40,327 nt of DNA from a virus, in IMG/VR virus record IMGVR_UViG_3300044799_000168, positions 1 to 40,327 of that record; one strand, 5' to 3'. A program made the position numbers and the translations under genes. This document shows, piece by piece, positions 3,772 through 40,327 of the stretch; position 1 is the stretch's first letter, and each line of letters begins with the position of its first letter. The notes under the pieces were generated by a model that did not search any database, had not been told where the DNA came from, and saw nothing but the letters and a program-made list of their open reading frames with translations.

Positions 3772-4012
3772 CAAGAAATTAGAGGCTGAAATACAGAAAA
3801 CCCGTCAGGCGTTTGGCCAGATTTATAAATTTATATATGACCATCAAGAACTTCTGCCCCAAACAACAATGGATAATTGGTATAATCTGTTATTTGAAAT
3901 TGAGATAGAATTGTTACTTAGGGCGGCTGGGGAGAAAAAGTTATTGCAGAAATATCAAACCCAAACTACCTTTCAAAAAAAGCAAAAAGCGCCTCCGGTC
4001 GGTGCGCTTTAA
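3761..4012 (+). CDS. Hypothetical helical protein, last gene of rightward arm
   Basis: The 83-residue protein overlaps the preceding gene by 11 nt. It is predicted to be mostly helical with a Gln/Lys-rich tail ending in APPVGAL. The last codons and stop lie inside the terminator hairpin that ends the opposite-strand late operon. I do not recognise the family. Confidence 0.7.
   Translation: MLIDKKLEAEIQKTRQAFGQIYKFIYDHQELLPQTTMDNWYNLLFEIEIELLLRAAGEKKLLQKYQTQTTFQKKQKAPPVGAL
3974..4010 (-). terminator. Terminator of the leftward late operon
   Basis: Read on the minus strand, AAAGCGC (4010-4004) pairs with GCGCTTT (3992-3986) over an 11-nt loop and is followed by a U-rich tract (TTGC then seven T). 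It lies about 54 nt beyond the stop of the last late gene and overlaps the 3' end of the last early gene. The two convergent arms therefore meet here. Confidence 0.75.
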
Positions 4013-4032
4013 CTTTGCCCGCCAGAGGCGCT
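3988..4032 (+). ncRNA. Alternative hairpin competing with the late terminator
   Basis: AGCGCCTC (3988-3995) can pair perfectly with GAGGCGCT (4025-4032) around a 29-nt loop. This 8-bp stem uses bases that also form the 3986-4010 hairpin, so the two are mutually exclusive. An AAGGAGG ribosome-binding sequence follows directly. The arrangement looks like an attenuator or a remnant leader. Confidence 0.45.
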
Positions 4033-5351: not shown

Positions 5352-6599
5352 TTAAAAGTAATTCTGTTTCCGCAGATTGTCTATTCTTTTCTTGGCGACC
5401 ACTATCAAGTCGCTGCGGTATTGCTTATCAGGTATGTTCACTTTGTCAACTTTGGCATACAGGGATTTCTCCAATCCATCAATGGAGTCGCCAATATCCG
5501 TTACCTCACATATCGCACCATCAACACCCGCCGTAAGAAACTTGCCGTCTTCATACTTGACATCCAACGGCCATATATCTGGTAAGCTCATATTGCCTAT
5601 CGGTTTGCCCGCACTTTTCTTCGCATCGCCAGAAGGGTATGGCTGGATGGACATTCGCACCGCCCCGCACCATTTATGGGAAGGACTTATTGCTGGTTTT
5701 TCGCCCGTGGCAAGGGCAAAGAAAAACTCATCCAATGGTTCGAGTTCCGGTATTGCGGCGTAAATGGCGTTGTATCCGAACCGTGTCGTAAATTCCAGAA
5801 AGTAAGGCAATCCGTCCTTGTCTGCAATGATACAGTTCATATCAAGAGGACTGTTGTATTTGTGCCTTTTCAGGAACGGTTCGATACGGGCAAGAGTATG
5901 CCTATAGATTTTGGGATTATGCTTGCGCCAAAACCATACGAGACTTGCCATACAACCAGTGTTCGGACCTTTATCGCCATCCATAAACCTCTTCAATTCG
6001 ACAGTGGAGTTTATGCTGTTCGGCACAAGTTCGCCATCGACATACCACGCTTCGGTCGATATTTCCGTGCCTTCTATCTTCTCCTGCAAGATGAAATCAA
6101 TCTTGTCCTTCCAGAGTTTTTTGAAATAATCGAGCATTTCGAGCATATCTTTGGCGTCTTTTGAAACATAAGTATAGACCGGCAGTTTGTTTCCTTGCGG
6201 CTTGAAAACATAGGCTTTATCGTTCTTCTTTAGAAAAGCAATGGCCTTGTCAAACGAGTTAAACTTTTCATAATTAGGCACTTTGACTCCGCCAGCTTTT
6301 GCTATTCTCATACCGAACTCTCTGTCAAGTTCCAAAGTATCATTGAGTTTTCCCCCGCCATAAACGGGATATTTCTTTTTCAGGCCGTCCGCCATTGTGC
6401 CAAGACCGACCATATCGAAAAGGATTATGCTTTCGTCCGTCAGACCTTTGGCGTAGTTCTCGACCTGCGGAATCATACCTTTGTAGGACGGTTTAGCTTC
6501 AGGTTCTTTAATCCAGAAATCAACCTTGTGTCCCAACTTTTTCAGGTGTAGCAACAAGGCGATTCCGTCTGCGTGTTTGCTTATAAGCCGAAATTTCAT
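5352..6599 (-). CDS. PurD-like ATP-grasp ligase
   Basis: The 415-residue protein resembles phosphoribosylamine-glycine ligase (PurD). A divergent N-terminal domain comes first, then ATP-grasp motifs: VFKPQGNKLP near residue 150, LQEKIEGTEISTEAWYVDGE near 190-210, KGPNTGCM near 234-241, and PYFLEFTTRFGYNA with the metal-binding Glu and Arg near 285. PurD joins phosphoribosylamine to glycine. The divergent N-terminus and late-gene setting suggest a different acceptor. It sits between the ejection proteins and the lysis cassette with little spacing on the lysis side. No other purine gene is present. Confidence 0.8.
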   Translation of the reverse strand: MKFRLISKHADGIALLLHLKKLGHKVDFWIKEPEAKPSYKGMIPQVENYAKGLTDESIILFDMVGLGTMADGLKKKYPVYGGGKLNDTLELDREFGMRIAKAGGVKVPNYEKFNSFDKAIAFLKKNDKAYVFKPQGNKLPVYTYVSKDAKDMLEMLDYFKKLWKDKIDFILQEKIEGTEISTEAWYVDGELVPNSINSTVELKRFMDGDKGPNTGCMASLVWFWRKHNPKIYRHTLARIEPFLKRHKYNSPLDMNCIIADKDGLPYFLEFTTRFGYNAIYAAIPELEPLDEFFFALATGEKPAISPSHKWCGAVRMSIQPYPSGDAKKSAGKPIGNMSLPDIWPLDVKYEDGKFLTAGVDGAICEVTDIGDSIDGLEKSLYAKVDKVNIPDKQYRSDLIVVAKKRIDNLRKQNYF

Positions 6600-30073: not shown

Positions 30074-30102
30074 TTGATTCGATTAAAGTGTTTTGGTAAA
30101 GT
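30074..30102 (+). promoter_or_regulatory. Candidate promoter for the rightward early arm
   Basis: TTGATT (30074-30079) and TAAAGT (30097-30102) are spaced 17 nt, and the first early frame starts about 30 nt later. The -10 box is only a fair match. It is the best sigma70-like pair in the divergent gap 29956-30131. Confidence 0.45.
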
Positions 30103-30131
30103 AGTCGATAAATAAAGTAAAGGAATTTACT

Positions 30132-30236
30132 ATGAACCGTCAGGCAAACAATAATCAGTTGGGAATGAAGGCCAGTTGTGGCTGCAATTCTGCGCTTGAC
30201 GGTTCAGATAGTGCTGCGACTGGCTTTCGTTATTGA
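30132..30236 (+). CDS. 34-residue leading peptide of early arm
   Basis: The frame starts at an ATG with AAAGGA 8 nt upstream and ends at TGA 30234-30236. The product (MNRQANNNQLGMKASCGCN...) is polar, with a CGC at residues 16-18. It is the first frame after the putative early promoter. It overlaps a strong inverted repeat, so it may be a leader peptide, or the segment may be mainly RNA. Confidence 0.45.
   Translation: MNRQANNNQLGMKASCGCNSALDGSDSAATGFRY
30133..30224 (+). ncRNA. Structured leader with interleaved inverted repeats
   Basis: TGAACCGTCA (30133-30142) is perfectly complementary to TGACGGTTCA (30197-30206). GCCAGT (30171-30176) is complementary to ACTGGC (30219-30224), which crosses the first pair in pseudoknot order. 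The first stem would sequester the start codon of the 34-codon frame. Confidence 0.45.
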
Positions 30237-30249
30237 AAGGAAAGTAAAA

Positions 30250-30423
30250 ATGGATAACCGACAGAAATTAGGCATTGTAGAAGCAGCTATTCACGCAATT
30301 CTTGATGTGGTAGAGTTGGGAATAGCCGATAGTGGCCGGCTTACCTATCAAGATGTGGTTGACCACCTAAGCGAAATAGCAAACAACTTGCGCAACGAAA
30401 TAGAACAAGATAGAGTATTGTAA
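30250..30423 (+). CDS. Small helical hypothetical protein
   Basis: The start at 30250 follows GAAAGGAAAG at proper spacing. The 57-residue product is two acidic helices (KLGIVEAAIHAILDVVELGI, YQDVVDHLSEIANNLRNEIEQ). The family is unknown. It is one of a run of 50-70 residue early proteins. Confidence 0.7.
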   Translation: MDNRQKLGIVEAAIHAILDVVELGIADSGRLTYQDVVDHLSEIANNLRNEIEQDRVL

Positions 30424-30471
30424 AGCTCTTTGAAAACTCTATATGGCGGTTTAGCAGAAAGGCGGTTGGCT

Positions 30472-30684
30472 ATGAAAATTACATCAACACACGAACAACG
30501 TCAAATAAACCGAGTTATGGAAAATTCAGCTTGTGGGTTGCTGGATATAGCCGAAAGATTGTCTCGAACTATGCCAGCCAACATTGACGACTTCAAAAGC
30601 GATTATCGTTTCGCCAAAGAACAATTACAAGCGATAGCCGATAACGCTGAACGGCACGGGATTAAGGTAAATTCTTTAATATGA
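30472..30684 (+). CDS. Small helical hypothetical protein
   Basis: The start at 30472 (MKITST) follows AGAAAGGCGG; an upstream in-frame ATG at 30430 has no ribosome-binding site. The 70-residue protein is helical (EQRQINRVMENSACGLLDIAERLS, YRFAKEQLQAIADNAERHG). It may be distantly related in style to its 57-residue neighbour. The function is unknown. Confidence 0.7.
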   Translation: MKITSTHEQRQINRVMENSACGLLDIAERLSRTMPANIDDFKSDYRFAKEQLQAIADNAERHGIKVNSLI

Positions 30685-30713
30685 ACATTTCTAAAGGCTA
30701 ACCGCCGATAGAG

Positions 30714-30792
30714 TCCTCGGCTCGGTAGTGGATGCAATGAAAATGGGATTTGCTGGCCAACCACAGGCCGTAGCTTCAATGCAGGCCGAGGA
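30714..30792 (+). ncRNA. Long nested hairpin in intergenic gap
   Basis: Three nested stems stack: TCCTCGGC/GCCGAGGA (30714-30721 with 30785-30792, 8 bp), TGCA-TGAA/TTCA-TGCA (30733-30741 with 30775-30783, one mismatch) and GCTGGCC/GGCC-AGC (30752-30758 with 30766-30774). The three together are very unlikely by chance. It precedes the gene at 30830. Confidence 0.6.
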
Positions 30793-30829
30793 TGTGCAGT
30801 GCAAAAGGAAACTGAAAAAGGAGAAAGAA

Positions 30830-31015
30830 ATGGCAAAAAAATTTTATCTTATGGATAATGGAAATCTTATTGAAGAAGCAGGACGAGGTATCACAAAAAA
30901 AGCAATCAATGCGCTTCAACAAACTGAGTGGGCGAAAAAGCAAGGTGGAATTTGCAACATTGTAGAATACACAGAACCACGAGCGATTCACTTTGCACGA
31001 AAACATTTAGCTTGA
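30830..31015 (+). CDS. Small basic hypothetical protein
   Basis: The start at 30830 has AAAAGGAGAAAGAA upstream. A longer in-frame reading from 30728 passes through the hairpin and is less likely. The 61-residue product starts MAKKFYLMDNGNLIEEAG and ends with a helical basic segment (KKAINALQQTEWAKKQGG, HFARKHLA). No family is recognised. Confidence 0.7.
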   Translation: MAKKFYLMDNGNLIEEAGRGITKKAINALQQTEWAKKQGGICNIVEYTEPRAIHFARKHLA

Positions 31016-31036
31016 TTAATGTTCTTTGGCAATTTG

Positions 31037-31157
31037 AAAGTGGCTGGCGGCGTTGTGGCATAAGGGAATGGGTTAGTAGGATAGAACGGTTATAAATAAC
31101 CAATCGAACCCCTAAACTCCACACAAGAACATACGAATCCTGCCCGTCAGCCACTTT
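31037..31157 (+). ncRNA. Large structured RNA element with 14-bp closing stem
   Basis: AAAGTGGCTGGCGG (31037-31050) pairs over 14 bp (one G-U) with 31144-31157. Inside are TGTGG/CCACA, GGGTT (31070-31074) with AACCC (31107-31111), and GGTTA/TAACC with a 4-nt loop (31088-31101), all nested. AGGAT/ATCCT offers an extra crossing pair. No frame fits the gap. Its closing stem resembles that of the element near 34214-34300. Confidence 0.65.
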
Positions 31158-31187
31158 TGAACTACCAAAACCTTGAAAGGACGAAAA

Positions 31188-31361
31188 ATGAGATATATGT
31201 GTAGAGAATGTTTAGAGGGTGAAAATCCAGAAAAGAAAAAGCCGTGTCTTTTTAATGTAGAAAAAGGCGGTGCGTCCCCAATGTATTGCCCTGTAGTTGG
31301 CGAAAAAGTAGAATGGATACCAATAGAACGTAAATCCGCTTCGCAGGACAGGCAAGGTTGA
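31188..31361 (+). CDS. Cys-rich mini-protein
   Basis: The start at 31188 follows GAAAGGACGAAAA. The 57-residue product has MCRECLEGENPEKKKPC, a CLF and a YCPV, four or five cysteines spaced like a zinc knuckle. The role is unknown. Confidence 0.7.
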   Translation: MRYMCRECLEGENPEKKKPCLFNVEKGGASPMYCPVVGEKVEWIPIERKSASQDRQG

Positions 31362-31374
31362 AAGGAAGGTTAAA

Positions 31375-31593
31375 ATGGCAGGTGATTTATTCATAACAAA
31401 ACCATTAGTTCCAACAAAGTTATATCATATTTTCGGGAAAGACCACCGTTCTTTATGTGGCAAATTTCTTGTTCTTAATCCAAGCCCTAAATGTTGTGAG
31501 CCATTCACGGGCGAAGAAGAGCCGCCGCTGAAAGGTAGAAAAGGCGAGGATTGCGTGGTATGTTTCAAAAAAGCGGGGATACCGATTTCGTAG
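31375..31593 (+). CDS. Cys-rich mini-protein
   Basis: The 72-residue protein starts behind GAAAGGAAGG. Conserved-looking cysteines lie at SLCGKF, KCCEPF and DCVVCFKKAG, so it probably binds metal. It has LYHIFGKDHRSLCGK, a segment like those in small phage proteins that bind host factors, but no family is recognised. Confidence 0.7.
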   Translation: MAGDLFITKPLVPTKLYHIFGKDHRSLCGKFLVLNPSPKCCEPFTGEEEPPLKGRKGEDCVVCFKKAGIPIS

Positions 31594-31599
31594 GATGCC

Positions 31600-31632
31600 C
31601 ACCCTTGAATTTAGGCATACTTTGGTATGGGT
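31600..31632 (+). ncRNA. Hairpin upstream of the methyltransferase gene
   Basis: CATAC/GTATG (31616-31620 with 31625-31629, loop TTTG) is enclosed by an ACC/GGT extension, and ATGCC/GGCAT (31595-31599 with 31614-31618) offers an alternative crossing pair. It lies 25-60 nt before a SAM-methyltransferase start. A regulatory leader is possible, but it does not match a SAM riboswitch I know. Confidence 0.35.
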
Positions 31633-31656
31633 TAAAACGTGAGAATTGAGGTAAAA

Positions 31657-32265
31657 ATGAAAGACTTGTATAGTAAAATCAGAAATATAAAATCAAACAT
31701 ACCAATTGGACAAGACGGTAATTGGAAGGTTGAGCGATTTGTTGTAGATGAAAAAGGAGCGGCGTTTCACAATCTACGAGAGGCCATAAATGGCCGTGAT
31801 AGAGAAATTGTTACCGGCACTTATACCAAACTTACCTGCAACGGCGAAATCATAATGTCCGACACACCCGCAGAAATCAGCGACCATTTACATTTTATTT
31901 GTCGAGCATCAGGAAATGTTTTGGTCAATGGTTTGGGTTTGGGGTTGGTTGTTGAGGGGTTAATGCTGAACTCGCAGGTTAAGCATATAACGGTGATAGA
32001 AATATCCCCAGAGGTTATTCGTCTTGTTGGTAGGCATCTTGGGAAAAAATACAATGGCAAATTAGAAATAATCAACGCAGACGCTTTCAGTTGGATTCCG
32101 CCTAAAGGTAAAATGATTTATGATTGTGTTTGGCACGATATTTGGCCTAACATTTGTGGGGATTATTACCCCGAAATGAAAAAGTTGCACCGAAAATACG
32201 CCCAGAAAACAAAGTGGCAGGATAGTTGGTGCAAGGAAGAAATTAGATTTAGAGCAAGAATCTAA
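31657..32265 (+). CDS. SAM-dependent methyltransferase, spermidine-synthase-like fold
   Basis: The start at 31657 has GAGGT at 5 nt; a GTG at 31639 is possible. The 202-residue product has GNVLVNGLGLGLVVEGL (glycine-rich SAM loop), ITVIEISPEVIRLVG (acidic residue binding the ribose), LEIINADAFSW and YDCVWHDIWPN. This is the class I fold as in polyamine synthases and many phage methyltransferases. The substrate is unknown. The N-terminal part has a beta-rich cap (EIVTGTYTKLTCNGEIIMSDTPAE). Confidence 0.85.
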   Translation: MKDLYSKIRNIKSNIPIGQDGNWKVERFVVDEKGAAFHNLREAINGRDREIVTGTYTKLTCNGEIIMSDTPAEISDHLHFICRASGNVLVNGLGLGLVVEGLMLNSQVKHITVIEISPEVIRLVGRHLGKKYNGKLEIINADAFSWIPPKGKMIYDCVWHDIWPNICGDYYPEMKKLHRKYAQKTKWQDSWCKEEIRFRARI

Positions 32266-32271
32266 AATGTG

Positions 32272-32288
32272 GTTTTTGAGCCAAAAAC
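32272..32288 (+). ncRNA. Perfect 7-bp hairpin after methyltransferase gene
   Basis: GTTTTTG and CAAAAAC pair around a 3-nt loop directly downstream of the methyltransferase stop; smaller pairs (AATTTT/AAAATT, CGGC/GCCG) follow up to the next ribosome-binding site. It could be a processing or pausing element. Confidence 0.4.
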
Positions 32289-32394
32289 GGCCTTTATAAG
32301 AATTTGCTAAATTTTCAGAAAATTCCGATTTTTCTCTTGATTTAATCCGGCAGTCGAGCCGATAATACTCATAGACGATTTGAAAGGTAAATAA

Positions 32395-32580
32395 ATGCAC
32401 TGCGAAAGTATAATCAAAAAGTTAATCCCAGCAAGGTCAAATCTTGCGCTTTCGCAGTGCGGAAACCTTGCTGGGCTAAACCTGTCCTGCCTGTGGCCAT
32501 CAGATTTTGCCCTCCAATACCGTAACTGGACACTGGAGATAGAATCATACCTGGCTACAGGTGGGATTTTTTATAGGTGA
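32395..32580 (+). CDS. Short hypothetical protein overlapping an RNA pseudoknot
   Basis: The 61-residue frame starts at an ATG with AAAGG upstream and ends 3 nt before the next ATG. The product has no recognisable motif; three cysteines are scattered. Almost the first half is made of two overlapping perfect inverted repeats, so coding could be secondary to structure. The close join to the next gene favours translation. Confidence 0.5.
   Translation: MHCESIIKKLIPARSNLALSQCGNLAGLNLSCLWPSDFALQYRNWTLEIESYLATGGIFYR
32397..32475 (+). ncRNA. Interleaved 12-bp and 11-bp perfect inverted repeats (pseudoknot order)
   Basis: GCACTGCGAAAG (32397-32408) pairs with 32449-32460 over 12 perfect bp. CCCAGCAAGGT (32427-32437) pairs with 32465-32475 over 11 perfect bp. 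The arms alternate (1-2-1'-2'), the order of an H-type pseudoknot. The first arm begins at the G of the start codon, so folding could block translation. Alternatively the repeats are DNA sites for a recombinase. Confidence 0.65.
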
Positions 32581-32583
32581 AAA

Positions 32584-32787
32584 ATGCTAAAAATAGAAAA
32601 TATAGAATCCTTAAATGAAAATTGCTATTATTTGCTCTCGCCAAAACAGGGATTATCCCCTTATCTGTGCGGGTGTTATCAAATTGATTCTGTTAATTGT
32701 AAAACAAAAATGTTTAGTGTCATAGGAATAATAGGCAATTGGAGATTTGATTCCTTTATCACTATTATTGATTTAGAAATAGATTAG
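32584..32787 (+). CDS. Small hypothetical protein
   Basis: The 67-residue protein starts with AGGTG upstream, 3 nt after the previous stop. It is beta-rich with three cysteines in the middle (PYLCGCYQIDSVNC) and has the look of a small OB/SH3-type fold. No family is recognised. It converges on the integrase gene. Confidence 0.65.
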   Translation: MLKIENIESLNENCYYLLSPKQGLSPYLCGCYQIDSVNCKTKMFSVIGIIGNWRFDSFITIIDLEID

Positions 32788-32796
32788 AAAATTCTT

Positions 32797-33633
32797 TTAT
32801 AAGTCCAGAACGTCAGTTGTGCCGGCAAGGTCGGCATCTTGCCAGTGAATGTAAATCATAGCGGTTGTTAAAGGTGAACTATGACCCATAAGTTTGCAAA
32901 TTGTCCCGATTGGACATCCGTTAATATGGAGTTGGTCGGCGAAATAATGACGCAGACTGTGGGGATAGAATGGTTTAATACCAGCAGCTTTGGCTGCTTT
33001 TTGGCATAGTCGCCAAAGCCAGTGGTTGCTTTTGCTCTTTAAAAATTTCATAGTAGGGTCATTTTCGAGGATAGATTTGATGGTTCGGTTAATCGGTATC
33101 GCCCGCCGCTTCCCACCCTTGCCGATAATGGTGATAAATTCACCGTTGAGATTTTCTTTAGTTAAGGCCATAAACTCTGCGGCTCGCAGGCCAGTATTTG
33201 CGAGGAGTTCAATACAGTCCTTTATATGGCCGCTTGTGGCTTTGACAATCTTACGGTACTCTTCTTGGCTTAGGATTCGCTGTCTCGGCGGTGATTTCTT
33301 CAAAGGCTCGACCTTTTTGGCGGCACTGGGAATACCGTGAATGGTTTCGACCCAACTCAAAAAAGACCTGATTGTGAACAGGCGGACGTTTCTGCTCGAT
33401 GCCTTGTAATTTTTTGCCAGGATAAACCGTTCGATAAGCTCACAGTTAATCTGGGTAACTTTACAAGTTTCAGGCAAGGTCGCTAAGAATTGCCGTATTA
33501 CCCCCGCATAGTTCAACCTTGTTTTAGGAGCAAAACGGCTAAGATGCAGCAGAAACCCATTATAAGCGCTCTCGACCGTTAGCATCCTTGCTGCCACCCT
33601 TAATTGTGTAGGCAGCATTATAAGGCGAACCAA
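32797..33633 (-). CDS. Tyrosine recombinase (integrase)
   Basis: The 278-residue protein has an N-terminal SAM-like core-binding domain (FAPKTRLNYAGVIRQFL) and a C-terminal catalytic domain. Conserved residues are visible: Arg in NTGLRAAEFMAL, Lys in GKGGKRRAIPI, HSLRHYFA, GHSSPLTTAMIYIHW. It is XerC/D-like in size. It makes the phage temperate. The start is unclear: TTG at 33633 lies only 1 nt after AGGAGG, while ATG at 33618 lies 16 nt after it. It is transcribed against the early genes. Confidence 0.9.
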   Translation of the reverse strand: MVRLIMLPTQLRVAARMLTVESAYNGFLLHLSRFAPKTRLNYAGVIRQFLATLPETCKVTQINCELIERFILAKNYKASSRNVRLFTIRSFLSWVETIHGIPSAAKKVEPLKKSPPRQRILSQEEYRKIVKATSGHIKDCIELLANTGLRAAEFMALTKENLNGEFITIIGKGGKRRAIPINRTIKSILENDPTMKFLKSKSNHWLWRLCQKAAKAAGIKPFYPHSLRHYFADQLHINGCPIGTICKLMGHSSPLTTAMIYIHWQDADLAGTTDVLDL

Positions 33634-33667
33634 ACCTCCTCGATATAGATAAATTTATTATATTTTC

Positions 33668-33747
33668 GGGGCTGGTAAGCCCAATACTACTTTGAATAAT
33701 ATTGGCGCATCACCAAACCCCACAGTTAAGCAGCTTACCTAATCCCC
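33668..33747 (+). ncRNA. Structured element in the integrase-early gene gap
   Basis: GGGG-GGTAAGC (33668-33671, 33674-33680) pairs with GCTTACC-CCCC (33733-33739, 33744-33747), and CCAATA (33681-33686) with TATTGG (33700-33705) inside. It lies between divergent genes, so it could be an attachment-site region or an operator as well as an RNA fold. Confidence 0.45.
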
Positions 33748-33790
33748 TAAAGTTCGTCAAGAGAAATTATCTAAATTAACAGGTGAAAAT

Positions 33791-34048
33791 ATGGAAAAAT
33801 TATTAAACGAAATACTAAATGTTGGTTATCAAGTTACTCTTTTTCAAAATGCTCTTGGCACAATTACTGCCAAAGCAGATGAAATTTGTGAAATAGAAGT
33901 AAACGAGAAAAATATAGAAGGTGAAGAATGGAAAGGCGAACCTGGTTTAGTCAATAAAAAACTTTATGGAGAAATTATCACAGATGGCAAAACATTAAAC
34001 GAAGCCATTAGAATGTTACACGAAAAAATTGAGATTTCTCCTCATTAG
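33791..34048 (+). CDS. Small acidic hypothetical protein
   Basis: The 85-residue protein starts with an AGGTG site upstream. It is mixed beta and helix (NVGYQVTLFQNALGTITAKAD, LYGEIITDGKTLNEAIRMLHEK) and acidic. It resembles in style the 53-residue protein at 34493. It is the first rightward gene after the integrase. No family is recognised. Confidence 0.7.
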   Translation: MEKLLNEILNVGYQVTLFQNALGTITAKADEICEIEVNEKNIEGEEWKGEPGLVNKKLYGEIITDGKTLNEAIRMLHEKIEISPH

Positions 34049-34140
34049 TTAAAAAGTTTATTAAGAGAAATTTTAACATTTTAACAAAGGCGAAAAAGAA
34101 AAAGGCAAAGCAGCTCTCTAAAAAGTAAATAGCGAATTTC

Positions 34141-34296
34141 GGCGGGCGGCGTGAGTTCCTATGTTGCGATACTTATAGAACGCTCTGGTTTGCTCTTCTT
34201 CCCGCTGATATTGTGCTGGCGGCGGCAAGCCAAAGCGATGACGAAACAGCAAACCGTAGAGCAGTTATTCGCAGCATCGTTGCGAACCTGCCCGCC
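34141..34296 (+). ncRNA. Multi-branched (four-way-junction-like) structured RNA
   Basis: A 7-bp closing stem GGCGGGC/GCCCGCC (34141-34147 with 34290-34296) encloses three helices: GTTC-CTAT/ATAGAAC (34155-34162 with 34175-34181), GCTCTGGTTTGCT/AGCAAACC-AGAGC (34182-34194 with 34248-34262, 2-nt bulge) and TTCGCA/TGCGAA (34268-34273 with 34281-34286). TGCTGGCGG/CCGCCAGCA (34214-34222 with 34292-34300) is an alternative partner for the closing strand, giving a possible switch. Confidence 0.65.
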
Positions 34297-34325
34297 AGCA
34301 TCTTTTGAGCATTACTCCTCCTCCT

Positions 34326-34356
34326 GAGTAGGGGCAGGGATGCCTTGCCCCTATTC
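34326..34356 (+). terminator. Terminator-like 11-bp hairpin
   Basis: GAGTAGGGGCA (34326-34336) pairs with TGCCCCTATTC (34346-34356), 11 pairs with one G-U around a 9-nt loop, followed by TATTTAT. The following tract is only moderately U-rich. Confidence 0.5.
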
Positions 34357-34377
34357 TATTTATCAAGGAATTAAAGA

Positions 34378-34440
34378 ATGGAATCAAAGGGGCAATGGCG
34401 TGTTACGCTTGTGCAAGTTAGGCCAGAACTGGCAGCATAG
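34378..34440 (+). CDS. 20-residue peptide frame with own ribosome-binding site
   Basis: An ATG at 34378 with AAGGA 9 nt upstream opens a 20-codon frame (MESKGQWRVTLVQ..., stop at 34438-34440). It lies inside the 5' half of a hairpin and may be a leader peptide or a chance frame. Confidence 0.3.
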   Translation: MESKGQWRVTLVQVRPELAA

Positions 34441-34453
34441 TCATTGCCCCCTT
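34387..34453 (+). ncRNA. Structured element with 11-bp closing stem
   Basis: AAGGGGCAATG (34387-34397) pairs with CATTGCCCC(C)TT (34442-34453, one bulged C). Inside, GCGT/ACGC and GCCA/TGGC form small hairpins. It directly follows the 34326-34356 hairpin. Confidence 0.5.
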
Positions 34454-34492
34454 ATTTGAAATTTATCGGCAAAGCCGAAGAAAGGGAAAAAA

Positions 34493-34654
34493 ATGACTGT
34501 GAGACGAATTCTTCAATTACTTGAAAAATATCCCAAAGAGGCCAAAGTGTATTTTACTGTGGAAAAAGAAGGTGGAATCATAATTAGTGAAGGAAGTTTA
34601 AGTTCCATAACCGAAGAAGCGGAAGAAAAATGGATTGACCTTAAAATAATCTAA
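34493..34654 (+). CDS. Small hypothetical protein
   Basis: The 53-residue frame has GAAAGGG upstream. The sequence is well formed (MTVRRILQLLEKYPKEAKVYFTVEK...ITEEAEEKWIDLKII): a helix, a strand pair and an acidic end. No family is recognised. Confidence 0.65.
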   Translation: MTVRRILQLLEKYPKEAKVYFTVEKEGGIIISEGSLSSITEEAEEKWIDLKII

Positions 34655-34663
34655 TTGGCCTAA

Positions 34664-34720
34664 TCAAATCGTAAGATTTGACTCTTAAACCTTCGCAGGG
34701 CTACTTAGGTTAAACCCTGC
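34664..34720 (+). ncRNA. Two consecutive hairpins upstream of the 34742 gene
   Basis: TCAAATC/GATTTGA (34664-34681) has a GTAA tetraloop and 7 perfect bp. GCAGGG/CCCTGC (34695-34700 with 34715-34720) follows. Both lie between the 34654 stop and the next ribosome-binding site. Confidence 0.5.
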
Positions 34721-34741
34721 TGAATTTGAAAGGATAGAAAA

Positions 34742-35029
34742 ATGCCCTCTAAATTTTATAAAGATGAAAGTAGAAAAGATTGGTATGACGAACTTTGCCC
34801 AACACAGCAACTAACCTGTGATAAAATTCAACTCGGTGCACTTTTGCGTATTGCCGATGCCACCGAAGTTATGGCTAAAAATCACCAGCAACTTATTGAT
34901 GAGCGGAATAACTACAAGCGATGGTATGAAAGCGAAAGGCAAACAACAGAAAAACTTGTTCGCCGAATATCCGGCTTGCGTGGTTATATCAAAAGGATAA
35001 ACAAATCCCGAAAGTTGAGGAAACAATGA
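34742..35029 (+). CDS. Small basic coiled-coil hypothetical protein
   Basis: The 95-residue protein follows GAAAGGATAG. It has an N-terminal SKFYKDESRKDWYDELCP segment and a long basic coiled coil (ADATEVMAKNHQQLIDERNNYKRWYESERQTTEKLVRRI). It ends KSRKLRKQ. Its stop overlaps a 15-codon frame. No family is recognised. Confidence 0.7.
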   Translation: MPSKFYKDESRKDWYDELCPTQQLTCDKIQLGALLRIADATEVMAKNHQQLIDERNNYKRWYESERQTTEKLVRRISGLRGYIKRINKSRKLRKQ

Positions 35030-35073
35030 CCGAAGAACTCCGCAAATTGCGGGAAGAAAGGAGAATTTTATGA
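35026..35073 (+). CDS. 15-residue bridging frame between two genes
   Basis: ATG at 35026 overlaps the preceding stop (ATGA), and its own TGA (35071-35073) overlaps the ATG of the next gene. The 15 residues (MTEELRKLREERRIL) form a charged helix. It contains the GAAAGGAG site of the next gene. It could serve to carry ribosomes across by coupled translation. Confidence 0.45.
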   Translation: MTEELRKLREERRIL

Positions 35074-35660
35074 AAGTCGAAACTTACGAATGCGAAGAAA
35101 CCAAAATGGAAGTTCCACAAGAAAGCGAGGAGGCAGTCAGATTGATAGACGAACTTGGTCTTGAAGGACAGCAAGTTCTTGTCTCAAAGAAAAAAGATGC
35201 TACGGAAATTCAGCGATGTCCTTATCGAAAAATCAGGGCGGATGAAGAATTTGTATATCGGTTGTTATGTCCCCAATCAATAGAATTAAAAAGATTTGAT
35301 GAAATGCCTATCCCTCTGCGTGTTTTACAGGTAATTGCTCACGCTAAATCGCTTAATATATTCCAAACATTTCAGATTTGGTGCGCAAGAGGAGCAATCA
35401 AAGACCCCGTGCTTGTTGCTTCGACCAAAGATTATATTTATAGCAGCGACAGGGACACTTTTATTCTTGCCAGATGGGGCGAGGAGTTAGATGAATTTGC
35501 CGTATTACTTAAAAAGGCGATTGAGAAATGGAAAGAAAAAGCAAAATCAACCATTGCCAAATGTATAGTTAAAGCCAATCAGGATTTACAGCTAATAGAT
35601 TTTTTAGACGCTGAAAGCATAATCAGCAAAAATGAACCGTATTACAATGGATTGTCTTAA
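35070..35660 (+). CDS. Hypothetical early protein
   Basis: The 196-residue protein starts with AAAGGAG upstream. It has an acidic N-terminus, a basic RCPYRKIRADEEFVYRLLCPQ core with cysteines, a helical IPLRVLQVIAHAKSL segment, and a long helix KKAIEKWKEKAKSTIAKCIVKANQDLQLIDFL. No enzyme motif is visible. It may be an early regulator. The function is unknown. Confidence 0.75.
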   Translation: MKVETYECEETKMEVPQESEEAVRLIDELGLEGQQVLVSKKKDATEIQRCPYRKIRADEEFVYRLLCPQSIELKRFDEMPIPLRVLQVIAHAKSLNIFQTFQIWCARGAIKDPVLVASTKDYIYSSDRDTFILARWGEELDEFAVLLKKAIEKWKEKAKSTIAKCIVKANQDLQLIDFLDAESIISKNEPYYNGLS

Positions 35661-35673
35661 TATCAGAAGATAT

Positions 35674-35741
35674 AGCAGATGCAGCCCGTAAAACTTCCGT
35701 AGTCCCGTCTAAATCCGGCAAGCCGGTGGGGTGCGTCTGCT
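35674..35741 (+). ncRNA. Terminator-like structured element
   Basis: AGCAGATGCA (35674-35683) pairs with TGCGTCTGCT (35732-35741) over 10 bp (one G-U), extended after a G-G mismatch by CCC/GGG. A CCGG-CAAG-CCGG hairpin lies inside. Five T follow the stem, as in an intrinsic terminator, directly before the next ribosome-binding site. Confidence 0.6.
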
Positions 35742-35759
35742 TTTTGAAGGGGTAAAAGA

Positions 35760-35945
35760 ATGAAAGAAATAGGTAAATACTTTTTAGTTAGAGTTGGTTG
35801 GCGTTGCAATATGTGTGGCAAGATGTTTTGGACGAACAAAAAAACAAAACCCCATTGTGCATCTGCTCCTTATCTTTTTAGTGATAAAACAATTTGCGAA
35901 ATTCCCAAAAGTATTGCTTTGAGATTAAAAAAGGCTAATCAATGA
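35760..35945 (+). CDS. Small zinc-knuckle protein
   Basis: The 61-residue protein starts with AAGGGG upstream. It has WRCNMCGKMFW at residues 14-24 and PHCASAPYLFSDKTIC, which is a four-Cys/His arrangement. The C-terminus is basic. Its stop overlaps the next start (ATGA). The role is unknown. Confidence 0.7.
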   Translation: MKEIGKYFLVRVGWRCNMCGKMFWTNKKTKPHCASAPYLFSDKTICEIPKSIALRLKKANQ

Positions 35946-36304
35946 AACTTATCGAAATCACAGAGAGTCATAACCGCCTACGAATAACCTGCGTGATTCT
36001 ATTGGTCATCATTGCTTGCAATGAATTGGTCATCATTGCTTGCAATGAAGTTGAACGGCACAAGGCCAGACGACCTATTATGCTACCGAATTACACAGTC
36101 GAAAAGCAAATAAGGAGTTTGCAACGCAGGGTCGGCGCAAAAGAAGATGGTATCGTTGGCTATGAAACTTTGACCAAAATCAATGCCGCAATCACCGCCG
36201 AGCGAAAGAAAGCAGAAATAGAAAAGTCCAGTGAAATGGCAGAACATTATTTTGTAGGTCAGCAAGCGGAATTTGAGAAAGCAAAGAAGGAGTTAGGTAA
36301 ATGA
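35942..36304 (+). CDS. Membrane/lipoprotein-like protein with peptidoglycan-binding domain
   Basis: The 120-residue protein has a hydrophobic N-terminus (RITCVILLVIIAC) with a lipobox-like IIAC, then the same eight residues repeated (LVIIACNE twice) because of a tandem DNA duplication. Residues about 50-80 match a peptidoglycan-binding 1 repeat (VEKQIRSLQRRVGAKEDGIVGYETLTKIN). A charged helical tail follows. It could be a lipoprotein at the cell wall for exclusion of other phages or a spanin-like part; there is no lytic domain. Confidence 0.7.
   Translation: MKLIEITESHNRLRITCVILLVIIACNELVIIACNEVERHKARRPIMLPNYTVEKQIRSLQRRVGAKEDGIVGYETLTKINAAITAERKKAEIEKSSEMAEHYFVGQQAEFEKAKKELGK
36001..36048 (+). 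repeat. 24-bp perfect tandem duplication
   Basis: Bases 36001-36024 are repeated exactly at 36025-36048. The unit contains the palindrome CATTGCTTGCAATG. It is in frame and duplicates eight residues, including the lipobox cysteine. Exact identity suggests a recent event. Confidence 0.95.
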
Positions 36305-36546
36305 GACAGATAAAATTCAGAGGCAAGCGAAAAGACAACAAAAAAGTCTGGGTATATGGTGGCTTATTCTTTATTGGTGAACGAGCATTTATAGTTACGG
36401 ACTGTGCGGAACTTGGCATAACACCTTATAAAAATGAAGTTCTTTATGGTTTTATTGAAGTTATCCCTGAAACTGTCGGTCAGTTCACCGGCCTTCTCGA
36501 TAAAAACGGTAAGGAAATATACGAATTGCTAAAGGATAACCAATGA
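36301..36546 (+). CDS. YopX-family protein
   Basis: The 81-residue protein starts in an ATGA overlap. It has the YopX pattern: MRQIKFRGKRKDNKKVWVYG at the start, and PETVGQFTGLLDKNGKEIYELL at the end (the family ends TVGQFTGLxDKNGKxIYEGD). YopX proteins are common in temperate phages, with no known activity. The last D of the family motif is missing. Confidence 0.9.
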   Translation: MRQIKFRGKRKDNKKVWVYGGLFFIGERAFIVTDCAELGITPYKNEVLYGFIEVIPETVGQFTGLLDKNGKEIYELLKDNQ

Positions 36547-36899
36547 CCGAATCTTCAATAAAAACTTTATTTGACCAGCCGCCTTTGGCCAGAAATACTG
36601 ACCCAATAACCAGCCATATTGCGGCGGACAAGATAATTGAATCGGGCGAGTTAAGTGCACAAGAGGAAATGGTTTATGATATATTGAAAAAATACAACAA
36701 CCCAAATGGTTTTACGGTCAAAGAACCTTCACATTATCGCAGTGATAGTTTTTATTTTATGCTTCAACGCCGCCTATCTGGCCTTGCCCGCAAAGGGTGT
36801 ATTGAATTTCTCACAACTGACGGCAGGTGGGTGAAAATTTTGGACGAAAACAATCGGCCTGCCACAAGGGATGGCTGCCGAATTATTAGAGCAGTGTGA
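36543..36899 (+). CDS. Winged-helix-like phage protein
   Basis: The 118-residue protein starts in an ATGA overlap. N-terminal ARNTDPITSHIAADKIIESGELSAQEEMVYDILKKYN and FMLQRRLSGLARKGCIEFLTTDGRW follow a small winged-helix pattern common in lambdoid-type early regions. It may bind DNA as a regulator. A lysogeny-control role is possible, as no other repressor is visible, but it is not supported by sequence alone. Confidence 0.65.
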   Translation: MTESSIKTLFDQPPLARNTDPITSHIAADKIIESGELSAQEEMVYDILKKYNNPNGFTVKEPSHYRSDSFYFMLQRRLSGLARKGCIEFLTTDGRWVKILDENNRPATRDGCRIIRAV

Positions 36900-36906
36900 G
36901 GTATTT

Positions 36907-37044
36907 ATGAGAAATCCTAACGAGCCGAACTGTTCCGATTGTTGGGAAAAAGACAAGGAAAACTGTCCGCATAAAGAAGAGTGCATTGCAGAGGTAATAA
37001 ATAAACAAGATGAATTCAGAGAAGAAAGGAGAAGTGAAAAATGA
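36907..37044 (+). CDS. Small Cys-rich protein
   Basis: The 45-residue frame starts at 36907 and its TGA overlaps the next ATG (ATGA). It has CSDCW at residues 9-13 and CPHKEEC at 20-26, a compact four-cysteine knuckle, then a charged helix. The ribosome-binding site (GAGG) is 6 nt upstream. Coupling to the nuclease gene supports it. Confidence 0.65.
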   Translation: MRNPNEPNCSDCWEKDKENCPHKEECIAEVINKQDEFREERRSEK

Positions 37045-37862
37045 AGATTAAAATATCAGCAGGATTTTCAGGTGTGATTGCAACAGGTTCTTTTCAAAAT
37101 GCACGACCAAGTTATACGGCAGAAGTGGAAATTGAAACAAATGTATCCAAACCAGTTGATGTTATAGATGCTTGGCAGAAAGAACTTCAGGAAGTTTGCT
37201 ATCGAAACTTTAAGCAAGATGAACAGACTCAAACCATAGAAAGAATACAGAGGGAACGCACAGATTTCAGAATGTATGGTGATTTTCCGTCTGTAACATC
37301 CATTCTTAATTGGGATGCTGATTTTTGGGTAACTATCGTAGAACTTCAACAATATGCTTCTCAGGGCAGTCTCATTCACGCCCAAGTTGCTGAATTTATA
37401 GAAACTGGCGAATGGAAACCTGTCGAAAAGATAGATGGGACTTGGTCTGATTTGATTATAGTAAAACAAGGCAAACTTCAATTACCGATTGAAGGATGGA
37501 GTTTCCCTGATTTTCTCAAGAAATATCCGATTGAGAAAATGGTTTGCGGCGAGCCGATTGTAAGTAATGAGTATCGTTTCGGCGGCACACCGGACATAAG
37601 AGTTTGTTACTACGAAGGGAAAAAGACCCTTGCGGATGTTAAAAGAACCCCGCAAAAACTCAAAGATTTCAAACAGATTGCCGCTTATGTTATCGCCGAA
37701 GAAGAAAACGGCGAAAGTCCTTACGAGCAAATGATGGTGATTCCGCTTAACGACAAGACCCAACAGGGTTTTTCCAAACCGATTATCTCAACAGAAATTA
37801 GTCAGTATAAACAGATGTTTCTCAAAGACAGAGAAAACTTCAAAAAGCGATATGGAATTTAA
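37041..37862 (+). CDS. RecB-like PD-(D/E)XK exonuclease
   Basis: The 273-residue protein has the RecB/Cas4-like nuclease motifs. SQGSLIHAQVAEFIETGEW near residue 112 is the G-x-x-x-H helix; EYRFGGTPDIRVCYYEGKKTLADVKRTPQKLKDFKQIAAYVIAEEE holds the catalytic E-x(n)-G-x-P-D and D-x-K and the Q-x-x-x-Y motif. The N-terminal 90 residues are beta-rich and specific. It overlaps the zinc-knuckle gene and lies one gene before SSB. It probably processes DNA ends for recombination. Confidence 0.85.
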   Translation: MKIKISAGFSGVIATGSFQNARPSYTAEVEIETNVSKPVDVIDAWQKELQEVCYRNFKQDEQTQTIERIQRERTDFRMYGDFPSVTSILNWDADFWVTIVELQQYASQGSLIHAQVAEFIETGEWKPVEKIDGTWSDLIIVKQGKLQLPIEGWSFPDFLKKYPIEKMVCGEPIVSNEYRFGGTPDIRVCYYEGKKTLADVKRTPQKLKDFKQIAAYVIAEEENGESPYEQMMVIPLNDKTQQGFSKPIISTEISQYKQMFLKDRENFKKRYGI

Positions 37863-37864
37863 TT

Positions 37865-38026
37865 ATGAAAAACGGTCGTGATGAATGGCGAAATAACGGA
37901 TGTCCTAAATGTGCCAAAATGACTACTGATAGATTGTGTCCCAAATGCGAAATCGAAATGTGCGAAGCAGCCATTTTGTCAAATATGAATAGAATCGAAC
38001 AATTAAAAAAGGAGATTCAAAAATGA
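37865..38026 (+). CDS. Small zinc-ribbon protein
   Basis: The 53-residue frame starts 2 nt after the nuclease stop and overlaps the SSB start by 4 nt. It has CPKCAKM near residue 13 and CPKCEIEMC near 25, a two-knuckle zinc ribbon, then a helix (NRIEQLKKEIQK). It lies between nuclease and SSB, so it may assist recombination. That is an inference from context. Confidence 0.7.
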   Translation: MKNGRDEWRNNGCPKCAKMTTDRLCPKCEIEMCEAAILSNMNRIEQLKKEIQK

Positions 38027-38622
38027 ATTTTGCACAAGTTAGGGAGGCTATAGGCAAGTTAGACGAGAAAAACTATCAGATTAAGATAGCAATGTTTGGC
38101 ACACCACAAAGTTTTGATGGTGTTACATTTACACCAGAAGGCAAAAGATTCCAACAGGTTTTTATAACTGATGATATAGGCGAAACAAACAAGGTTAAGA
38201 TATATCTTGGTGAAGAAAAAACTATTGGTGATGGTTGTATCGGCAAGCGATTGGCTTTCCAAATAGCCCCAGTTCCATTCAAGAATAAAATGTATTATGG
38301 CGGTTTTTGGAATGATAGAGCAACTGTTGCACCCGCCAGAACTCCTACCAAACCTTCTGTTTCAACGCAGGGTGCGTCAAAAGCCCCTGCCCCTACTCAA
38401 ACTACCCCTAAGCCTGATTGGGATGCTATAGCAGAAGGTAAGGTTAGGCACGGTTTGTTGTGTGCCTATATACAAGGTGGTAGTGCTCTTTCGGATGATG
38501 ACCTTTACAAACAAGTCCTTCAAGATACCAAATTTGTTATGCAGGGTGAGTATTACTTTGAACCAGAACCAGACAAAAGCATAACGGAAAATAATCAGCA
38601 AACAGACGATATTCCTTTTTGA
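38023..38622 (+). CDS. ssb: Single-stranded DNA-binding protein
   Basis: The 199-residue protein has an OB-fold-like N-terminal domain (residues 1-105; strands around YQIKIAMFGTPQSFDGVTFTPEG, RFQQVFITDD and KVKIYLGEEK). A Pro/Thr/Ser-rich linker and a further helical segment follow. The C-terminus is TDDIPF, the classic SSB tip that recruits partner proteins. It lies after the RecB-like nuclease in a coupled string. Compared with cellular SSB the N-domain is divergent and the tail is longer. Confidence 0.8.
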   Translation: MNFAQVREAIGKLDEKNYQIKIAMFGTPQSFDGVTFTPEGKRFQQVFITDDIGETNKVKIYLGEEKTIGDGCIGKRLAFQIAPVPFKNKMYYGGFWNDRATVAPARTPTKPSVSTQGASKAPAPTQTTPKPDWDAIAEGKVRHGLLCAYIQGGSALSDDDLYKQVLQDTKFVMQGEYYFEPEPDKSITENNQQTDDIPF

Positions 38623-38633
38623 TGAGGTGAAAA

Positions 38634-38942
38634 ATGTTACCAATACATACAAAAATAGGAATAGATTTATATGTCAACGAAGGCTATCCAGTTGGGGACT
38701 TTCTTTATGCGGTTTTGACAAACAATTTATTTGAAGCAACAGGTCGGGCTGACCATATCAATCGCCCAAATTTGGCTGATATTTGCCTTTACATTTATAA
38801 TTATACTCCTGCTGTATGTTGGGGCAGTATTGATAAAGTAGAAAATTGGTGGAAATTACACAAAGAAAACCCAGAAGAAGCAAAAAAGATTGCTAACCGT
38901 GATAGAGAATCAAGGGAAAGTCCGTGTATCCCAGTGTTTTGA
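38634..38942 (+). CDS. Conserved hypothetical phage protein
   Basis: The 102-residue protein starts behind GATGAGGTGAAAA. It has VGDFLYAVLTNNLFEATGRADHINRPNLADICLYIYNYTPAVCWGS, a pattern I know from many unannotated phage proteins (G-D-F-L...N-D-L...A-x-A-D...I-x-x-Y-x-Y-N-x-x-P). The function is unknown. The start shares a 20-bp identical context with the next gene. Confidence 0.75.
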   Translation: MLPIHTKIGIDLYVNEGYPVGDFLYAVLTNNLFEATGRADHINRPNLADICLYIYNYTPAVCWGSIDKVENWWKLHKENPEEAKKIANRDRESRESPCIPVF

Positions 38943-38953
38943 TGAGGTGAAAA

Positions 38954-39313
38954 ATGGAAGTTGTAAAAATCGCCGATGAAATCCAAAAGAAAATAGATGC
39001 CCTTGATACCATTAGGGCTACTGTTCGGGAACGTGCAAACGCAAAAGCTAAAGCCATCGCCGAATATGATAAGCAGATTGCCATTACCCTGATTAAACTT
39101 TCGAGCGGCAAGACTATGACAATAGACGAACACAAAATCGAGAAGCCATCTGTTTCGGTCTCAGAAAAAATCGCCAAAGGAATATGCTGGCAAGAAAAGC
39201 TCAATATGGAGCAGGCGACAGCTTCCTACTCTGCGGCAGTAACAAACCTTGATGTTGTTATGGCACAGTTGAATGCTTTACAAAGTATATATCGGCATCT
39301 GTCGGAGGCTTAA
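38954..39313 (+). CDS. Helical phage hypothetical protein
   Basis: The 119-residue protein starts behind GATGAGGTGAAAA. It is a coiled coil from residue 5 to 50 (IADEIQKKIDALDTIRATVRERANAKAKAIAEYDKQIAI) and again at the C-terminus (YSAAVTNLDVVMAQLNALQSIYRHL). Similar small two-helix proteins sit next to recombination genes in other phages. No function is known. Confidence 0.7.
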   Translation: MEVVKIADEIQKKIDALDTIRATVRERANAKAKAIAEYDKQIAITLIKLSSGKTMTIDEHKIEKPSVSVSEKIAKGICWQEKLNMEQATASYSAAVTNLDVVMAQLNALQSIYRHLSEA

Positions 39314-39316
39314 CTT

Positions 39317-39375
39317 GGGGCAGAGCAAACGTGTATTTCGTTCAAAGGATTGAACCAAAATACTGTCTCTGCCCC
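39317..39375 (+). ncRNA. Nearly continuous long hairpin before gene at 39399
   Basis: GGGGCAGAG/CTCTGCCCC (39317-39325 with 39367-39375), GTATTT/AAATAC (39333-39338 with 39358-39363) and GTTCAA/TTGAAC (39340-39345 with 39350-39355, loop AGGA) are nested with small internal loops. Five T follow 3 nt later (39380-39384), so a terminator role is possible. Confidence 0.7.
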
Positions 39376-39398
39376 GCCATTTTTAAGGAGTTGAAAGT

Positions 39399-40114: not shown

Positions 40115-40327
40115 AAAAGCACGAATTTTATAAACCTGAAGAGTTCAAGAATAACAAAAGAGTGCCTCTGTTTTGGAAATGTCTTTTTTGTGATAAAGAG
40201 TTTCATACTTTAGAAGAAGCAGATAAAGACGAATGTTTATGGAGACAAGAAAAAGAAATAATTAAAAAAGCAATGGACGTTATTGCCGTTCGCAAACAAG
40301 GGCATAGTAGATTGGTATATGATAAAA
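40111..40327 (+). CDS. Hypothetical CxxC protein, 5' part of gene cut by the window ends
   Basis: The ATG lies at 40111 and the frame continues past the window end into base 128 of the left end, as the last 127 bases repeat the first 127. Together it is a 137-residue protein: MKKHEFYKPEEFK, KCLFCDKEF (CxxC), a charged helix, then the part described at 1-324. It overlaps the stop of an 18-codon frame. Confidence 0.85.
   Translation, partial: MKKHEFYKPEEFKNNKRVPLFWKCLFCDKEFHTLEEADKDECLWRQEKEIIKKAMDVIAVRKQGHSRLVYDK
40201..40327. repeat. Right copy of terminal 127-bp overlap
   Basis: The last 127 bases are identical to the first 127. Because the gene at this site is continuous when joined, this is an overlap of a circular assembly. 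Confidence 0.95.

Follow-up and report, generated by a model that had tools for sequence, protein, structure and literature searches.

What do the strongly folded gaps between the early genes of a phage do for the messages that carry them? The question is raised by an uncultured virus represented by a 40,327-base IMG/VR record (IMGVR_UViG_3300044799_000168), analysed here over its full length and referred to as the window. The record carries a 127-nucleotide (nt) direct terminal repeat (1–127 and 40201–40327) and is therefore probably a complete phage genome. Its structural genes run leftwards from about 29,955 to 4,064, and small early genes run rightwards from about 30,130 to the right end and continue up to 4,012. 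An initial annotation had listed 14 folded stretches, described as intergenic and often nested or branched, as typical of most longer gaps in this early arm. On sequence evidence, we propose that two of them, at 30133–30227 (W1) and 32396–32475 (W2), may be copies of a recurring leader element that works as a self-closing attenuator built around a leader open reading frame (ORF), a reading to which we give a little under an even chance.

A stacking-energy search for crossing helices revealed that each of the two stretches contains two long helices in the order a–b–a′–b′, the layout of a pseudoknot, with interleaved scores unmatched in any of 100 shuffles. Nested-only folding recovers the first helix (S1) and misses the second (S2), and ‘nested or branched’ is thus wrong for these two best folds. 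In W1, the S1 strands are TGAACCGTCA (30133–30142) and TGACGGTTCA (30197–30206) and the S2 strands are AAGGCCAGT (30168–30176) and ACTGGCTTT (30219–30227), the last followed by CGTTATTGAAAGG, the Shine–Dalgarno sequence (SD) of the gene at 30250. A 34-codon leader ORF, MNRQANNNQLGMKASCGCNSALDGSDSAATGFRY (30132–30236), has its own SD (AAAGGA, 30119–30124); a weak sigma70-like promoter (TTGATT, 17 nt, TAAAGT; 30074–30102), tentative at 4/6 matches per hexamer and below the promoter-scan threshold, lies ahead of it. In W2, the S1 strands TGCACTGCGAAAG (32396–32408) and CTTTCGCAGTGCG (32449–32461) cross the S2 strands CCCAGCAAGGT (32427–32437) and ACCTTGCTGGG (32465–32475), after which there is no T-run; the crossing helices, CACTGCGAAAG/CTTTCGCAGTG and CCCAGCAAGGT/ACCTTGCTGGG, are of 11 base pairs (bp) each. 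Here the leader ORF has 61 codons (32395–32580; SD AAAGG at 32383–32387), and the promoter scan placed a promoter-like site at 32337–32366 (TTGATT, 18 nt, GATAAT; 9/12). All of these features lie on the plus strand.

The arrangement recurs elsewhere. We identified 11 further copies in eight other uncultured phage contigs, making 13 members in nine genomes together with W1 and W2: three in G001 (G1a, G1b and G1c), one each in G002 and G003 (G2 and G3), two in G012 (G12a and G12b) and one each in G025, G026, G028 and G040 (G25, G26, G28 and G40). The first relatives gave 11 matches scoring −46 or lower (some counted on both strands) and shuffled sequence gave none; in a separate search, three shuffles of 480 kb reached −41.2 at best; 1.03 Mb gave eight real matches at −42 or lower, four of them members, against none shuffled. 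These strict scores were used because a loose interleaved-helix scan with a T-run filter showed no total excess over shuffles, only an excess in the tail; GC-rich relatives, with their many chance matches, were set aside because the score is not informative there. No member was found in 222 kb of controls (lambda, 50 kb of T4, 50 kb of phi38:1, HMO-2011 and ctYwJ313), in which the two matches were one tandem repeat and one weak match inside a gene. The early arms of five contigs with the 38954 protein (G020–G024) held no clear member either, and the element is therefore not a constant feature of the arm. Rfam release 15 (4227 models) gave no match at the gathering threshold in the window or in the relatives L005, L077 and L073, and at E ≤ 5 only chance-level matches elsewhere in the arm, none on the elements. 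Our searches of the open-access literature turned up no description of such an element in phages, and the interleaved-helix leader is a previously unlisted phage RNA element.

Across the 13 members, S1 measures 10–14 bp and S2 9–21 bp. Loop 1 spans 15–19 nt in all but W1, where it is 25 nt, within a search that permitted a far wider range; loop 2 spans 2–23 nt, sometimes with a hairpin of its own, and the 3′ strand of S1 adjoins that of S2 (0–1 nt) in 9 of 13. The pair cells comprise 301 Watson–Crick, 28 G–U, no A–C and 4 other combinations, and both the complementarity and the 28 G–U against zero A–C are consistent with pairing in RNA. Folds constrained to S1 only and to S2 only differ by no more than about 7 kcal/mol in 12 of the 13 members. 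Around the G028 element (L201 18247–18375) lies an additional 10-bp stem, GGTTACGGAC/GTCCGTAACC, and the G001 element at 2917 (L005 2891–3010) likewise has an outer stem, TCCAATAAA/TTTATTGGA.

Several features outside the search criterion are shared as well; because these tests were picked after the first members had been seen, their probabilities are descriptive. An ATG starts no more than 3 nt from the S1 5′ edge in 10 of 13 members (background 6%, P = 2 × 10⁻¹⁰), and in all 11 members with an ATG or GTG start the frame runs on for 31 codons or more (product of shuffle rates 2 × 10⁻⁷), with stop codons through the element numbering 1, 24 and 18 in frames 0, 1 and 2. A run of five Ts (T5 run) follows S2 in seven members (background 1.8%, P = 8 × 10⁻¹⁰), with W1, W2, G3 and G26 among those that have none, and CAAT occurs within loop 1 in seven (P = 6 × 10⁻⁵). 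In G1a, G1b, G2 and G40, a −10-like hexamer lies 6–7 nt ahead of the A of the ATG, which places the transcript start (+1) at the start codon; promoter scores reach 11/12 in G1a and 10/12 in G1b. W1, W2 and G3 have an SD instead. In six members (W1, G1a, G1b, G1c, G12a and G40), leader ORFs of 31–34 codons end within about 15 nt of the next start. The leader peptides are not conserved and have no codon run in common. The layout, the start codon and its open frame, the T-run and the position can all be read directly from the sequences.

Since the first helix has the start of the mini-gene at its edge, the element probably acts as a small translation-dependent switch on the gene that follows, and a switch read by the ribosome fits the AUG at the S1 edge, the open but unconserved frame, the terminator-like end and the close next gene. 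In the model that we propose, the transcript would start at or just ahead of the AUG at the 5′ edge of S1, and the leader ORF spans the whole structure, often stopping where the ribosome-binding site of the following gene lies. The S1 3′ strand falls within the loop of S2, which, often followed by a U-run, resembles an intrinsic terminator. A ribosome that has started at the AUG by the time this strand emerges would keep S2 open, so that polymerase reads on, and would finish beside the following start site. With no ribosome, S1 would close over the AUG, S2 would form beside it as a pseudoknot or in its place, and transcription would halt at the U-run. Pairing of both helices in RNA, termination by S2 and translation as the signal are our inferences. 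The initial annotation was right to remark that the folds are not simply terminators and to name translation switches among the candidates.

If the model is right, this is a compact switch that senses prompt translation of a message. It is possible, although we would not call it probable, that it represents a new class of phage messenger RNA switch, in which the 5′ end of the message, with a throw-away leader start codon, pairs with the loop of a downstream terminator, so that a ribosome must load before the loop emerges or the gene is shut off, the module being reused before unrelated early genes without conserved sequence. When the cargo genes of uncultured phages are annotated, control elements are usually left out, and a recurring leader that is recognizable by interleaved complementarity alone, has next to no conserved sequence and overlaps a mini-ORF would be missed by sequence searches and nested-fold searches alike.

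Several observations weigh against the attenuator. The search itself selected for pairing, which makes pair counts alone circular, and choosing the better strand favours G–U over A–C. No two members align by blastn. In some members, second loops of 2–7 nt beside an S1 of 12–13 bp make the simultaneous full formation of both helices tight. Termination has its weakest support in the window copies: S2 is not followed by a T5 run in either of them, and in W2 by no T-run of any length. The leader ORF is not always present, because G25 reads GTG TAA and G12b has no start codon, and G3 and G28 have no nearby next gene start.

The broader proposal, that strong folds occupy most longer gaps of the early arm, held in part. 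In the shuffled-sequence control that the initial annotation had called for, each of the 14 listed stretches was folded against 200 dinucleotide shuffles. Ten beat them, with z-scores from −2.9 to −5.7: 30133–30224 (−3.6), 31037–31157 (−3.3), 32397–32475 (−4.5), 34141–34296 (−4.7), 34326–34356 (−5.4), 34387–34453 (−3.0), 34664–34720 (−2.9), 35674–35741 (−3.6), 39317–39375 (−5.7) and 3988–4032 (−3.3). The other four were weak or absent and not clearly above chance: 30714–30792 and 32272–32288 (both −1.8), 33668–33747 (−1.1) and 31600–31632 (+0.4). Because the listed borders had been picked by eye, we also scanned fixed 80-nt windows along the whole genome. Scores below −2.5 occurred in 15.8% of early noncoding and 2.7% of early coding 80-nt windows, an enrichment of about six-fold, whereas the two z distributions were only weakly shifted overall (Mann–Whitney P = 0.065); the enrichment is therefore carried by a few gaps. 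Late noncoding 80-nt windows were similar to early noncoding ones (11.3% below −2.5), and strong folds were found within genes too. ‘Intergenic’ is wrong in part, as 30132–30236 and 32395–32580 are short ORFs with an SD, and an SD-preceded 20-codon frame overlaps 34387–34453.

These results could be read in other ways. Leader translation and its termination might let the pseudoknot form or melt upstream of the next ribosome-binding site, a coupling like that of plasmid repY–repZ and one without transcription termination. Such a translational switch would suit the 31–34-codon leaders that end beside the next start in W1, G1a, G1b, G1c, G12a and G40, the end of S2 a few nucleotides ahead of the next SD, and the lack of a T5 run in W1, W2, G3 and G26. 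Translational control does not need the T5 run that follows S2 in seven members, however, and G3 and G28 lack a nearby next start; overall we consider it unlikely, if a serious contender. For W1 and W2 specifically, because both lack a T5 run, it is as likely as the attenuator. It is also conceivable, and quite unlikely, that the pseudoknot around the leader AUG is bound by a protein, of the phage or of its host, which would trap or block ribosomes in the manner of S15 on Escherichia coli rpsO, whose operator pseudoknot takes in the start of the coding sequence (PMC8470358). The AUG at the S1 edge and the recurring CAAT in loop 1 are what such an operator might offer, but outside loop 1 the members share no sequence, and several copies per genome stand ahead of unrelated genes.

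An improbable reading makes the elements small stable RNA genes, each with a promoter, an RNA of about 85 nt with helix-locked ends and a terminator; loop 1 would then act in trans, with the ORF there by accident. Several members do carry promoter-like sites and T-runs at their two ends, and both ends are paired, yet one would not expect an accidental frame to remain open in all 11 members with a start codon, and expression of the next gene from that promoter would mostly need read-through. Put-like antiterminators, which bind RNA polymerase after early promoters and were among the candidates of the initial annotation, resemble the element in promoter-proximal position, size and possession of two helices as in putL (PMC9378689). 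Their claim is very weak, since here the helices interleave rather than follow one another, sequence conservation is absent, the element has a start codon and stays open in frame along its length, and a T-run may follow S2. Finally, the folds might be miscellaneous hairpins, unrelated terminators and palindromes, numerous enough that the interleaved W1 and W2 just happen to come out best. The four listed folds not clearly above shuffles, the weak overall shift, the strong folds inside genes and one gap fold that is not conserved all speak for this, and it suits most of the other listed gaps; as it does not account for the loop lengths, start codon and open frame that 13 elements have in common, we see little chance that it covers the whole. 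Readings of the elements as group-I-intron-like, hepatitis-delta-virus-ribozyme-like or integron attC structures were dropped, given the missing conserved core, the interleaved order and the open frame.

The remaining gaps do not form one class with W1 and W2, as the initial annotation had supposed: two, perhaps four, of the listed folds belong to the interleaved-helix element, one ends an operon as a plain terminator, four do not clearly exceed chance, and separate, unrelated hairpins make up the rest. Two plus-strand stretches may be further members, although both are weaker cases than W1 and W2. A tentative third element, W3 (34182–34301), has S1 at 34182–34194/34248–34262, read from the sequence, and S2 at 34213–34222/34292–34301, from the crossing-helix search, with an extra hairpin ahead of the S2 3′ strand and CTTTTG after it. 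A possible distant variant at 31019–31157, also tentative, has ATGTTCTT (31019) with AAGAACAT (31127) crossing the stem 31037–31050/31144–31157 (z −3.3), and its frame closes after 14 codons. The fold at 3988–4032 lies outside the class and is the terminator of the leftward operon, a minus-strand GC stem followed by the T-run TTTTTGCTTTTTTT. The hairpin at 34326–34356 is terminator-like; its 5′ arm (TGAGTAGGGGCAGGG, 34325–34339) is a perfect 15-nt complement of 38385–38399 within the ORF 38023–38622, which could be chance (roughly 5% for an arm of this size) or a trans-acting RNA. The 20-codon ORF that overlaps 34387–34453, MESKGQWRVTLVQVRPELAA, lies at 34378–34440. The stretch 33668–33747, not above chance, sits between a divergent integrase gene and the next gene. 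The fold at 39317–39375 is itself strong, and in relatives where the flanking gene was found, the gap homologous to 39314–39398 has no such fold.

The window has no DNA-level match in a cultured phage collection, and a prophage search of GTDB genomes found no relative from which to name a host. Its portal protein has a relative in HMO-2011-like phages at about 24% identity. The nearest record with an early arm is G001, with structural proteins mostly 35–54% identical and no DNA similarity between its gaps and those of the window. By comparison, a 273-residue early protein (37041–37862), without match in Pfam and PHROG searches, is 82% identical to its G001 homologue, which suggests recent exchange of this early gene. 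The ORF at 35942–36304 contains a perfect 24-nt tandem duplication (36001–36048), giving the peptide repeat VIIACNE-L-VIIACNE. In L005, a 195-residue early protein (5555–6142) has at least 212 IMG/VR relatives, whereas the phage record collection yielded one weak match, Phage NCTB. A search of the window for transfer RNA and transfer-messenger RNA genes found none.

How does the element compare with known systems? Trp-type leader-peptide attenuation, as generally understood, likewise has a short leader ORF, competing helices, a U-run after the last helix and genes downstream. A short translatable ORF at the transcript start appears to be present here, open for at least 31 codons in 11 of 11 members with a start codon, whereas the expected GC helix with a U-run is represented by a T5 run in seven of 13 and in neither window copy. 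In trp-type leaders, terminator and antiterminator share a strand and are mutually exclusive, whereas here the helices interleave and S1 and S2 share none; the trp-type leader stops before the terminator, whereas here the ORF passes through the terminator-like helix; and here the start codon lies at the edge of the first helix, there is no regulatory codon run and the peptide is not conserved. In the repY–repZ system of IncI-alpha and IncB plasmids, a leader ORF of about 30 codons ends beside the next start and a pseudoknot lies just upstream of the second gene, and this layout fits W1, G1a, G1b, G1c, G12a and G40. The repY–repZ pseudoknot has a short helix and is controlled by an antisense RNA, however, whereas here the two helices are long and often followed by a T-run, and no antisense RNA was seen.

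The rpsO operator, bound by S15, is alike in that its pseudoknot takes in the start of the coding sequence (PMC8470358), but it has specific protein-binding bases, controls its own gene and lacks a terminator-like tail. The put RNAs of phage HK022, about 70 nt long with two stem-loops of similar sequence in putL and putR (PMC9378689), are RNAs of similar size with two helices after early phage promoters. Theirs are successive stem-loops that share sequence and bind polymerase, with no pseudoknot described; our members have interleaved helices without similarity among them, an ORF and often a T-run. Because a defining feature of trp-type attenuation and one of put are lacking here, we do not count the element as a member of either. 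Taken together, these likenesses would place it closest to trp-type attenuation and repY–repZ in behaviour, to rpsO in shape and to put in position.

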